Below are positions 8,326-13,107 of a stretch of DNA of 40,503 nt, one piece after another; within the stretch, counting starts at the first letter, position 1; the number at the start of each line of letters is the position of its first letter. The notes beneath the pieces were generated by a model. That model saw nothing but the letters and a program-made list of their open reading frames with translations. It did not search any database and was not told the DNA's origin. This DNA comes from Nitrospirota bacterium (GTDB taxonomy: Bacteria; Nitrospirota; Thermodesulfovibrionia; Thermodesulfovibrionales; UBA1546), in the NCBI GenBank assembly GCA_016208915.1, contig JACQXE010000049.1, positions 1 to 40,503 on the forward strand, written 5' to 3'. A program made the translations under genes and the position numbers.

Positions 8326-9189
8326 TCACTTATCACCTTCCTTTGAAACGCTTAAGCTGTCTAACGGGCTCCGTATTTTTCCAAGACTCTTTGTGCTTAC
8401 ATGTGTATAAATTTCAGTTGTCTTGCTGTGTGCATGACCAAGCAACTCCTGTATGTAGCGCAAATCCACACCGTTTTCAAGCAGATGTGTCGCAAAGCTG
8501 TGGCGTAATGTATGCACTGAGATGTCTTTCTTAGTGTTTGTCTGTGTACATGCATGTTCAAGAATGTGTTGAACGGTTCTGGTCGAAATGTACCTATCCC
8601 TCCGTGCTCCTTCAAACAGCCATTTTTGTGGCTTGTACTCACGCCAGTATTTTCTGAGGACATTAAGGGCTGTCTCTGACAGAATCGTATATCTATCCTT
8701 TCTCCCCTTTGCACCTTTGACATGAATCAACATTCTTTTACTGTCAATGTCTTCAGCTTTCATTTTTACAACCTCTCCAACCCTCAAGCCAGCAGAATAG
8801 ATAAGCATAAGTATTGCCCTGTGTTTTATATTATCTACCGCTGAGAGAATTTTCGCAACTTCTTCTTTGCTTAAAACTACAGGAAGTTTCTTGTCTTTGC
8901 GTGGTCTTTTGACTTCATAGACAAATTTTCTCTTAAGCATGCTGCCGTAGTAAAATTTCAAAGCGTTTATCGCCTGATTTAATGTGGCTGTTGCTGATTG
9001 TTTTTCTTCTGCGAGGTATAGGAGATAATCTTTTAGGTCGTTATCATTGACTTCTGACGGCTGCTTTTTAACAAAGTCGAGGAAATCTCTATTGTAATAA
9101 AGATAGCCTTTGACAGTCCGATAGCTGTATTTTTGTGAGAGGAGTTCACGGCGGAGGTCTTCGAAACTGTGATGAGATTGCGTCGGCAT
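8326..9189 (-). CDS. Tyrosine recombinase / integrase, XerC/D-like
   Basis: 287 residues from ATG 9189. There is a SAM-like core-binding domain (about 8-90) and a catalytic domain with all active-site residues: Arg136 (AGLRVGE), Lys161 (KGAKGRKDR), His226-x-x-Arg229 (VHTLRHSFATH), His252 (LLGHAHS) and nucleophile Tyr261 (EIYTHV). The C-terminus KIRSPLDSL resembles IntI proteins, but the extra helix region IntI carries before the HxxR box is absent. It lies beside an attC-like cassette array transcribed in the same direction. The open frame continues upstream to 9462 and encodes a conserved-looking N-terminal domain, so ATG 9189, which sits inside a palindromic repeat, is probably not the native start. 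Confidence 0.88.
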   Translation of the reverse strand: MPTQSHHSFEDLRRELLSQKYSYRTVKGYLYYNRDFLDFVKKQPSEVNDNDLKDYLLYLAEEKQSATATLNQAINALKFYYGSMLKRKFVYEVKRPRKDKKLPVVLSKEEVAKILSAVDNIKHRAILMLIYSAGLRVGEVVKMKAEDIDSKRMLIHVKGAKGRKDRYTILSETALNVLRKYWREYKPQKWLFEGARRDRYISTRTVQHILEHACTQTNTKKDISVHTLRHSFATHLLENGVDLRYIQELLGHAHSKTTEIYTHVSTKSLGKIRSPLDSLSVSKEGDK

Positions 9190-9207
9190 TTTGTGCCTCG
9201 CAATGAC
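9171..9207 (-). repeat. Palindromic repeat embedded in the recombinase reading frame
   Basis: Minus strand: GTCATTGCGAGGCA, CAAAA, TGCCGACGCAAT, CTCATC. The arms ATTGCG/CGCAAT and GGCA/TGCC form a hairpin of the kind common as dispersed intergenic repeats (compare 10136-10165). Here it is translated as VIARHKMPTQSHH, joining the N-terminal and recombinase domains, and it supplies the ATG at 9189. Confidence 0.6.
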
Positions 9208-9462
9208 AGAAGTAGAGAGTCGTGTTTGCAGGGCAGGGTCTATATGGATTTCTTCGCCCTTGAAAACCTCTAAGATTTTCTCTAATGTCCCATTTGTATT
9301 CGGAAAGCTCCAGTGTTTTTCTTTTGGATGCCATTTGTGGCCGAAGATGGTTTTTATCTTCTGGACAAGGGTAGGGTTATATCGGAATCTAACAATTATC
9401 CTTTCAGAGTTGTCTTTGTTTAAAGTTACCCTGGTTCCATAGGAAACTATAGCCAGTTCACC
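9190..9462 (-). other. In-frame N-terminal extension of the recombinase, no standard start codon
   Basis: The frame is open from a TAA at 9465-9463 into the recombinase and reads SERIIVRFRYNPTLVQKIKT, then KWHPKEKHWSFPNTNGTLEK, a small domain I associate with longer members (about 370-390 aa) of this integrase family. No ATG, GTG or TTG occurs before 9189. The best-placed codon is ATA 9450-9448, 8 nt after AAGGTG, which would give a 374-residue protein. Either ATA is used or the start was lost by mutation. The region overlaps the end of the macrodomain gene. Confidence 0.6.
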
Positions 9463-10224: not shown

Positions 10225-11514
10225 ATGCTTAAAAAGATAATTTTCTTTTTCGTGGTTTCTTGTCTTTTCATATCTGTACCCGCTTTTTCCAATGTGCAAA
10301 AAAAAGAAGTTATTGTTATTACTATCAACGGGGTAATTAATCCTGCCTCTGCCGAATATATCAGCAAGAGTATTAAAAGAGCAAACGAACAGAAAAAAGA
10401 GGCTGTTGTAATAGAGCTTGATACCCCCGGCGGGCTTGATACGTCTATGAGAGAAATAGTCAAGAACATTATCGGGAGCGAAGTGCCGGTAATAGTGTAT
10501 GTCTCTCCGAGCGGGGCGAGGGCTGCGTCAGCAGGCACATTCATAACACTTTCTGCGCATGTCGCTGCTATGGCTCCAGGCACTAACATAGGCGCAGCGC
10601 ATCCTGTTGCTGTTGGCGAAAAGATGGACAAGACAATGGCTGAAAAGGCAACAAATGATTCGGCTGCATATATAAAATCTCTTGCAGAAAAATCAGGAAG
10701 AAATGCCCAATGGGCTGAGAATGCTGTAAGAAAGAGCATATCTGCTACAGAGGCTGAGGCATTAAAGGAGAATGTTATTGACCTTGTCAGCAAGGATCTC
10801 AATAAGCTTCTTTTAGATATAGAGGGCAGGAAGGTAAGGACGATAATGGGTGAGAAAATCCTGCGCACAGCAAATGCGCCTGTAAAAAGAGAAGAGATGG
10901 GGTTAAGGCATAAGATACTTAATTTCATTAGCGACCCTAATGTGGCTTATATGCTGATGCTTCTCGGGTTTTACGGATTGTTTTTTGAACTGACAAATCC
11001 CGGCGCTATATTCCCCGGTGTTATAGGCGGCATCTTTCTTATACTTGCATTTTATGCATTCCAGACGCTTCCCGTAAATTATGCGGGCCTTCTGCTGATT
11101 ATTCTTGCGATTATACTTTTCATCTTGGAAATCAAGATAATTTCACACGGAGTTCTGACAATCGGCGGTGTTGTAGCAATGGTGATAGGCTCTCTTATGT
11201 TGTTTGAATCACCCGGACCTTTTATGAAATTATCCTTTTTTCTAATCCTTCCGTCAGTAATTTTAACAGCGCTGTTTTTTACAATTGTGCTTGGTCTTGC
11301 ATACAAGACGTATAAGAGAAAACCCGTTACAGGCTCAGAAGGGCTTATCGGATTGAAAGGGATTGCAAGTACAGATATAACAAATGATAGTGGTATGGTA
11401 TTATTACACGGGGAGATTTGGTCTGCATATTCTGATGAAACCATATCTAAAGGTGAAAAAATAATAGTAGTGTCTGTAACAGGATTAAAGGTAAAGGTTA
11501 AAAAAGGGAATTAG
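10225..11514 (+). CDS. NfeD-family membrane serine protease (ClpP-like)
   Basis: A 429-residue long-form NfeD. It has a signal peptide (residues 1-22), a ClpP-class serine protease domain with nucleophile Ser102 ([11 protein letters not shown]) and probable general base Lys141, then four to five membrane helices (about 235-345) and a C-terminal OB-fold NfeD domain (about 370-429). The protease faces the periplasm and in archaeal homologues cleaves the hydrophobic C-terminus of stomatin. A stomatin gene follows, giving the conserved NfeD-stomatin pair. I choose ATG 10225 because upstream codons derive from REP repeats and the signal peptide begins here. Confidence 0.9.
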
Positions 11515-11590: not shown

Positions 11591-12361
11591 ATGGGAATAC
11601 CGCCGGCAGTTATGGGTTTTTTGTTTGTAATATTCATGGTCATCTATTTCCTTTCGAGTGCGATAAAGATTTTGAGGGAATATGAGAGGGGTGTTGTATT
11701 CAGACTTGGAAGGATTATACCTGTAAAGGGGCCGGGTCTTGTGATCATAATCCCGATAATCGATAAACTCGTAAGGGTGAGCCTCAGGACAGTAACAATG
11801 GATGTTCCTCCTCAGGATATAATAACAAGGGATAATATAACTGTTAAAGTCAATGCTGTTATCTATTTCAGGCCTATAGACCCTATAAAGGCAATAACAG
11901 AGGTAGAGGATTTTTACTATGCAACCTCACAGATTGCACAGACGAGTCTCAGAAGCATCCTCGGCCAGAGCCAGCTTGACGACCTCCTTGCCAAAAGGGA
12001 TGAGCTGAATGCCTCACTCCAGAAGGTCATCGATTTCCAGACAGAACCCTGGGGCATAAAGGTCTCGACCGTTGAGGTGAAGAACGTCGACATACCTGTT
12101 GAGATGCAGCGCGCCATTGCGCGCCAGGCAGAGGCTGAGCGTGAAAGAAGGGCAAAGGTCATCCATGCAGAGGGAGAATTTCAGGCGTCACAGAAACTTG
12201 CAGATGCTGCAAAGATTATTGCAACTGAAAGCGGGGCACTGCAACTTAGATTTCTCCAGACCCTTACAGAGATCGCAACAGAGAAGAACTCAACGATTAT
12301 CTTCCCTGTTCCCATAGATTTGATTAAACCATTTCTCGATAAGACAGGAAAAACAGGATAG
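11591..12361 (+). CDS. Stomatin/slipin-type SPFH (Band 7) protein
   Basis: A 256-residue slipin: one N-terminal membrane helix (about 6-24), then the SPFH domain ([14 protein letters not shown] to [14 protein letters not shown]) and a coiled-coil segment ([20 protein letters not shown]), ending in a hydrophobic-tipped tail ([13 protein letters not shown]). These proteins oligomerise in membranes and partner with NfeD proteases. The upstream gene is such a protease, 76 nt away. AAGGAGG precedes the ATG. The product probably organises membrane microdomains or protects envelope proteins. Confidence 0.92.
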
Positions 12362-12408
12362 GGTATGGAATATTTGCAACAGATCCATAACCTCAAAGGA
12401 GTTTACTG

Positions 12409-13107
12409 ATAGCGCCGATTAAGAACAAAATATGGTTAAGGCTTTTTGTCCTTGTTCTGATTATAGCAGGTTCCACATTTTTTCTATACAAGACAGGGCT
12501 TGTTGCTTTCTTTCTTAATAAGGAAAGGATAACTGATTTTCTAAGGTCATTAGGCCCTCTTTCTTTTTTGGGCTTTATAATGCTTCAGGTAGTGCAGGTT
12601 CTTGCAGCCCCGATGCCTGGGGAGGTCACTGGTTTTATCGGGGGCTATGTATATGGTATAGTCATCGGCATCATACTATCCACTATCGGACTTACTATTG
12701 GTTCATGGATGGCTTTCAGCCTAGCAAGATTTTTTGGGAGGCCATTTGTCGAGAAGTTTATCAAAAAGGAAACCATGGACAAATATGATTACCTGCTTCA
12801 TCATAAGGGTGCATTTCTTGTATTCTTGCTGTTTCTTACCCCAGGTTTTCCAAAAGATTCCCTCTGTTATATACTCGGCTTGGGACATCTGAGCACAAAG
12901 GAGTTTCTTGCAATCAGCACTGTGGGGCGGTTTGTAGGCACTGTTCTGCTTACGCTCGGAGGCAGCTATATTTATAATCATCAGTATCGCAGATTTTTTG
13001 TTCTTTTTGGGATTGCTATTATAGCTGTTTTTTTGTCAATGATCTACCGGGATAAGATTGAAAGAGTGTTCAAAAAAATGTACCGCCGCATAAAAAAACA
13101 AAGATAA
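12409..13107 (+). CDS. TVP38/TMEM64 (DedA/VTT-domain) family membrane protein
   Basis: A small polytopic protein with the VTT signature: VVQVLAAPMPGEVTGFIGGY (the P-x-P/G-E helix hairpin), then GSWMAFSLARFFGRPFVEKF and FLLFLTPGFPKDSLCYILGL. Homologues act as lipid scramblases or proton-coupled transporters. In frame, coding clearly extends upstream of the first standard start (TTG 12568): the codons from 12409 give a basic N-terminus and first membrane helix (IAPIKNKIWLRLFVLVLIIA). ATA 12409 lies 7 nt after AAAGGAG, and no ATG/GTG/TTG exists between the upstream TAA (12388) and 12568. From ATA it is 232 residues, normal for the family; from TTG 179, which cuts the first helix. Confidence 0.85.
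   Translation: MAPIKNKIWLRLFVLVLIIAGSTFFLYKTGLVAFFLNKERITDFLRSLGPLSFLGFIMLQVVQVLAAPMPGEVTGFIGGYVYGIVIGIILSTIGLTIGSWMAFSLARFFGRPFVEKFIKKETMDKYDYLLHHKGAFLVFLLFLTPGFPKDSLCYILGLGHLSTKEFLAISTVGRFVGTVLLTLGGSYIYNHQYRRFFVLFGIAIIAVFLSMIYRDKIERVFKKMYRRIKKQR

Follow-up and report, generated by a model that had tools for sequence, protein, structure and literature searches.

The locus considered here raises the question of where translation of a gene for a DedA-type membrane protein begins, its reading frame being devoid of ATG, GTG and TTG codons from an in-frame TAA at 12388 to a TTG at 12568. The gene lies in a 40,503-nucleotide stretch of Nitrospirota DNA (the window), which corresponds to contig C25 of a 2.51 Mb assembly (88 contigs, 98.76% complete). 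An original prediction, made from this stretch alone, had proposed ATA 12409 as the start and a recombinase gene as a second such case, suggesting tolerated AUA initiation or recent start-codon loss in the lineage. Comparison with orthologues strongly supports the proposed dedA start; the other parts of the prediction fared less well.

Start site of dedA and its conservation

The features of the window that bear on this question are as follows.

10225..11514, plus strand: NfeD gene (Pfam PF24961, PF25145, PF01957), upstream of the slipin gene
11591..12361, plus strand: slipin/stomatin-like Band_7 gene with an ATG start (Pfam PF01145), directly upstream of dedA, used as a control
12388..12390, plus strand: in-frame TAA stop upstream of dedA
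12395..12401, plus strand: Shine-Dalgarno (SD) sequence AAAGGAG, its GGAG invariant in 12 aligned same-family loci
12406..12408, plus strand: in-frame CTG, not conserved and nearer to the SD than usual
12409..12411, plus strand: very probable ATA start codon of the DedA/VTT gene, an invariant alignment column
12409..13107, plus strand: TVP38/DedA-like VTT-domain membrane protein of 232 aa, identified by Pfam PF09335 and by orthologues

The gene product belongs to the VTT domain family (PF09335, 87.6 bits against a curated cut-off of 33.9), a domain that it has in common with the DedA/TVP38 family and UptA, but it differs from the latter in scoring 20.1 bits with the UptA equivalog model NF052604, under the cut-off of 250. 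On contig C4, a paralogous DedA gene carries an ATG close to its beginning, without a recognised SD.

Re-reading of the frame confirmed that AAAGGAG is separated from ATA 12409 by 7 nt (TTTACTG) and that no canonical codon (ATG, GTG or TTG) occurs between 12388 and 12568. The in-frame start-type codons up to that point are CTG 12406, ATA 12409, ATT 12418, ATA 12430, CTG 12457, ATT 12460, ATA 12463, ATA 12529 and, finally, TTG 12568; the earlier inventory was thus correct as to canonical codons but had overlooked CTG 12406. TTG 12568 is not a credible start, because it corresponds to residue 54 and lies past columns F35, F44, G49 and P50, which are invariant in 19 aligned orthologues. A 14-codon ORF (12365-12409, plus strand) ends in a TGA that overlaps the ATA of dedA (TGATA); across the 12 aligned loci, conservation of the ATG of this ORF is lacking.

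An orthologue of dedA is present in 15 of the 16 genomes of the GTDB family (no match in G013), and 14 of these 15 loci, the window's own included, carry ATA behind an SD at the homologous position. The sole exception, L004/L036, comes from a single genome, 66% complete, and has no ATA at this site. Spacing from GGAG to ATA is 7 nt in 13 of the 14 ATA loci and 8 nt in L014. When 12 of the 15 loci were aligned upstream of the coding part (L004, L007 and L013 being left out), the only invariant columns were one A (column 12), GGAG (50-53) and ATA (61-63), which argues that the combination of SD and ATA is more than chance.

A search at E <= 0.001 produced dedA matches in 51 of 61 genomes, many of them distant paralogues. 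The wider set of loci numbered 90, with 87 unique frames, mostly Nitrospirota by title; the named relatives are for the most part 'Nitrospirae' or 'Thermodesulfovibrionales' metagenome assemblies, joined by some Deltaproteobacteria. In 36 of the 87 loci, an AUH codon (AUA, AUU or AUC) follows an SD, and canonical codons are absent between the in-frame stop and the middle of TM1 (ATA 25, ATC 6, ATT 5; L100, later left unassigned, and L071, where ATC or ATA is possible, are the weaker ones). Both types of codon occur in 29 loci and canonical codons alone in 22, including L036 and L078, whose sole canonical codon lies inside TM1. A start was assigned in 80 loci, 55 of them AUH and 25 canonical (ATA 36, ATT 13, ATC 6, ATG 14, GTG 6, TTG 5). 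In 20 of the 55 AUH loci, which contain a canonical codon as well, the choice was made by hand; seven loci (L036, L065, L078, L096, L098, L110 and L100) were left unassigned.

On the dedA tree, the distinction between AUH and canonical starts required 12 changes; shuffling of the labels gave 21.5 on average and, in 500 trials, never a value as low. The main clade, which includes the window, has 46 members (40 AUH, 4 canonical, 2 unassigned). Canonical starts cluster in a five-member clade that includes L109, a Thermodesulfovibrio sp. by title (GTG/TTG), and in a clade of three (L051, L052 and L056, ATG), and are also found in Deltaproteobacterial loci (ATG) and in single rows. Judged from these sequences, it is the AUH class and not one letter that is kept in dedA, as ATA, ATT and ATC replace one another, the extent of this interchange being modest (3 changes only). 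In three loci from Deltaproteobacterial bins (L076, L108 and L111), TATAAT lies 6 nt upstream of the ATG and no SD is recognised; a leaderless dedA mRNA is possible there.

AUH starts elsewhere in the genome and in relatives

AUH codons mismatch fMet-tRNA at the third base only; as starts they are weak, depend on a good SD and are discriminated against by IF3, and infC, the classical IF3-autoregulated gene, uses this for its autoregulation. Inspection of infC, as suggested by the original prediction, revealed an AUA start in the window's own genome and AUH in all 30 loci examined (29 ATA, 1 ATC; matches in 60 of 61 genomes, 30 loci classified, six of them also with some canonical codon nearby). 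A search for pcnB gave nothing over the cut-off in 21 genomes, so that this gene offered neither a comparison nor a positive control. By contrast with infC, the slipin control, run with the same classifier as hflX and infC, was canonical in 64 of 64 classifiable loci with 0 AUH (87 loci in total, 19 with no match and 4 with the 5' part missing).

The suggested genome-wide scan was run on 1,204,954 bases (48%) of the window's own genome, in which simple gene calling gave 994 genes; 48 rows that had an SD while lacking a canonical start in the vicinity were then inspected by eye. Five AUH genes proved to be kept in relatives, namely infC, dedA, hflX, a GGDEF gene and a DUF488 gene. This count comprises those checked in relatives; L251 (ATC) and several weaker rows lie outside it, and more may exist. 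Because counts of SD plus AUH are not above those for codon classes such as GCN, CTN and GAN (control classes that contain, uncorrected, neighbouring codons of true AUH genes), it is conservation, not counts, that carries the AUH claim. Two candidates with CTG starts were rejected: RimP (window 15018, CTG) has a high SD score, but RimP models begin upstream of the CTG, and a multihaem cytochrome (L119:4842-5789, minus strand) has a CTG behind a very strong SD, but a second SD with ATG follows 22 codons on; for the latter, a dual start or a leader is possible.

The GGDEF and DUF488 genes are located in the same assembly (G000) as follows.

L200:16871-18232 (G000:C26), plus strand: PAS-GAF-GGDEF gene with a putative AUU start behind GAGGAGG
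L268:3485-3928 (G000:C53), minus strand: DUF488 gene with a putative AUC start behind TAAGGAGGT

At the GGDEF gene, ATT is found in 5 of 6 same-family loci, the remaining one (L237) having ATA followed, two codons later, by a TTG; outside the family, no clear AUH start is present in the four loci compared. For the DUF488 gene, all 3 same-family loci begin with AUH (AUC, AUC and AUA), and no AUH was seen at this site in more distant matches, whose frames are longer.

The broadest coverage was obtained for hflX (L124 in the window's own genome; NCBIfam GTPase HflX), whose product has a role in ribosome splitting. The search matched 184 of 198 genomes, and the sample (rows L202-L231, L288-L299 and L307-L346) covered 82 genomes of the window's phylum by 42 full loci and 40 five-prime regions hand-picked over families (groups f25 and f26 left out). 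AUH was found in 70 of the 82, two of them doubtful (L293, L322). Loci of group f24 (L319, L320 and L345) also carry AUH starts. Among the full loci, 37 are AUH-best (33 without a canonical codon nearby), 4 are 'none' and 1 is NTG; for L223 and L224, two of the 'none' loci, ATC/ATA does stand at the projected site, but the distance to the SD falls beyond the range that was scored. The five-prime regions comprise 33 AUH-best (22 without a canonical codon nearby) and 7 canonical cases (f14, f17, f29, f33 and L332). Of 8 related Deltaproteobacterial or other named records, 7 matched, only 3 of them with the N-terminus; these three Deltaproteobacterial loci (L347-L349) start with AUH, L348 having an ATG two codons upstream. 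In L220 and L288, AAA or AAG stands 6 nt after GGAGG, and the nearest AUU lies two codons further, 12 nt from GGAGG.

A tree of 45 full-length hflX loci (L220, L230, L288 and L293, the last with an ATG 8 codons upstream, left out by hand; L296 and L298 re-registered by one codon) has AUH at the projected start in 41. At least 12 changes among ATA, ATC and ATT are seen on this tree and none to ATG in the 41 rows; as A-to-G is a transition, this plain count of changes suggests selection against AUG at the hflX start.

The recombinase gene (window 8329-9450, minus strand), which had been offered as a second AUA case, has one feature of note.

9448..9450, minus strand: ATA earlier proposed as the recombinase start, unsupported by the related 5' ends examined

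Its arrangement is as had been described (AAGGTG at 9464-9459, 8 nt, ATA 9450, with an in-frame CTG 9456 nearer to the SD), but conservation of ATA with an SD was not found when 7 different 5' ends from relatives were compared (9 rows, of which two repeat a locus). An SD followed by ATA close to the site is seen in one of them, L174/L359, where an ATG comes 6 codons further on; in L354, the ATA candidates are weaker and lie elsewhere. The frame is without a clear start, its relatives do not share one either, and several of the matches are incomplete or interrupted by stops.

Explanation and competing readings

Comparison at the level of sequence establishes the position of the dedA start, its SD spacing, its conservation, the lack of a canonical alternative and the restriction of such starts to few genes. 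ATA 12409 is very probably the true start of dedA, old and selected. With high confidence, we propose that dedA is translated from AUA 12409 and that AUH behind an optimally spaced SD has been kept by selection in most of the orthologues examined. As in starts of the infC/pcnB type, dedA has a near-cognate AUH codon with an SD and no canonical alternative, conserved across species (14 of 15 in the family, 55 of 80 assigned); it is thus probably a selected weak start of this type, for which IF3 sensitivity is predicted. The rare start looks like a brake on protein making rather than an error. As fMet-tRNA starts inefficiently at a third-base mismatch, DedA protein would be made at a low rate, and, as IF3 rejects AUH codons, synthesis from dedA would be expected to increase under a shortage of IF3 relative to ribosomes, as it does for infC and pcnB. 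dedA would then belong to a small AUH-start set with infC, hflX, the GGDEF diguanylate cyclase gene and the DUF488 gene.

The most serious competitor, to which we assign a considerable chance somewhat short of even, holds that the AUA start is real and merely lowers expression of a membrane protein, with neither IF3 sensing nor shared regulation. It draws strength from the predictive nature of the IF3 dependence and from the 25 of 80 assigned orthologues with canonical starts, which show that the weak start is dispensable to the gene. It accounts less well for a set that includes infC and hflX, the latter encoding a ribosome-associated GTPase, and for the retention of AUH although TTG or GTG could lower expression too.

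It is unlikely that ribosomes reach dedA through coupling to, or a frameshift in, either the upstream gene or the 14-codon ORF: stop codons do overlap the ATA, both here (TGATAG) and in several relatives (TAATAG), but the distance between the stop of slipin and the point where the dedA frame opens varies from -388 to +252 nt across loci, and the 12 aligned loci have no conserved ATG upstream. Slipin lies upstream of dedA in 68 of the 87 loci, and the AUH start persists where none was found in the upstream DNA available (L069, L070, L077, L087 and L091 with ATC, L089 with ATT). Initiation at CTG 12406, three bases upstream of ATA, is very unlikely. This codon is in frame behind the same SD, and the CTG-ATA pair recurs in L016, L040 and L049, but other same-family relatives have GTA, GCA, CCA, ATA or TAA in its place, while ATA itself does not vary and mostly keeps the 7-nt spacing.

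A tolerance of AUA initiation throughout the lineage was part of the original prediction; it might arise, e.g., from a variant initiator tRNA and would fit the AUH starts of all five genes (infC, hflX, dedA, GGDEF and DUF488). It is nevertheless highly improbable, since a single altered anticodon would not account for the exchange of AUA, AUU and AUC for one another, and since five confirmed cases among 994 gene calls stand beside a slipin control that is canonical in all classifiable loci. An assembly error or recent decay of ATG to ATA has next to no probability: the assembly is metagenome-like, with its 88 contigs, but independent assemblies of several genera carry the same codon, and start-codon loss is hardly recent when the same kind of start occurs in many genera and families.

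Relation to known systems and implications

The selected, probably IF3-sensed start proposed here for dedA resembles the AUU-type starts of infC and pcnB in being a conserved AUH behind a strong SD, infC of the same lineage starting with AUA; dedA differs in encoding a membrane protein and in that its IF3 control is a prediction. Closest in kind among other bacteria are non-canonical starts of Staphylococcus aureus, of which one report (PMC13009471) describes ccpN (AUA), cvfC1 (AUU) and citZ (AUA). These sites were mapped by ribosome profiling and gave ~10% of AUG reporter output in poor medium, the ccpN start lowering output in a medium-dependent manner; those of ccpN and cvfC1 are conserved, and that of citZ occurs in one strain lineage (PMC13009471). 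The S. aureus starts belong to other genes in another phylum and have extended SDs (PMC13009471). Among the matches listed in a search of open-access literature, there was no report of AUH starts of dedA, of hflX or in Nitrospirota, which does not prove that none exists. Devices of this kind are known; the genes concerned and their spread across phylogeny appear to be new as far as the literature was searched.

The start codons recognised by gene finders in common use are ATG, GTG and TTG, and AUH-start genes therefore risk wrong N-termini in annotation; for dedA of the window, a protein begun at the first canonical codon would lack TM1. Conserved AUH starts represent a signature of translational control for which the sequence suffices, and within one phylum hflX would have such a start in many families. 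They also allow a test of whether the level of IF3 is a general regulatory signal. Use of AUH in both infC and hflX would fit a link to free ribosomal subunits. More tentatively, and at clearly less than even probability, there may be an old IF3-sensed AUH regulon in Nitrospirota and some Deltaproteobacteria, with infC and hflX as its core, dedA added in Thermodesulfovibrionales, and the GGDEF and DUF488 genes in the window's family. In such a regulon, all members would go up together whenever IF3 fell relative to ribosomes, and the balance of ribosomal subunits would be tied to ribosome splitting, membrane and c-di-GMP functions.
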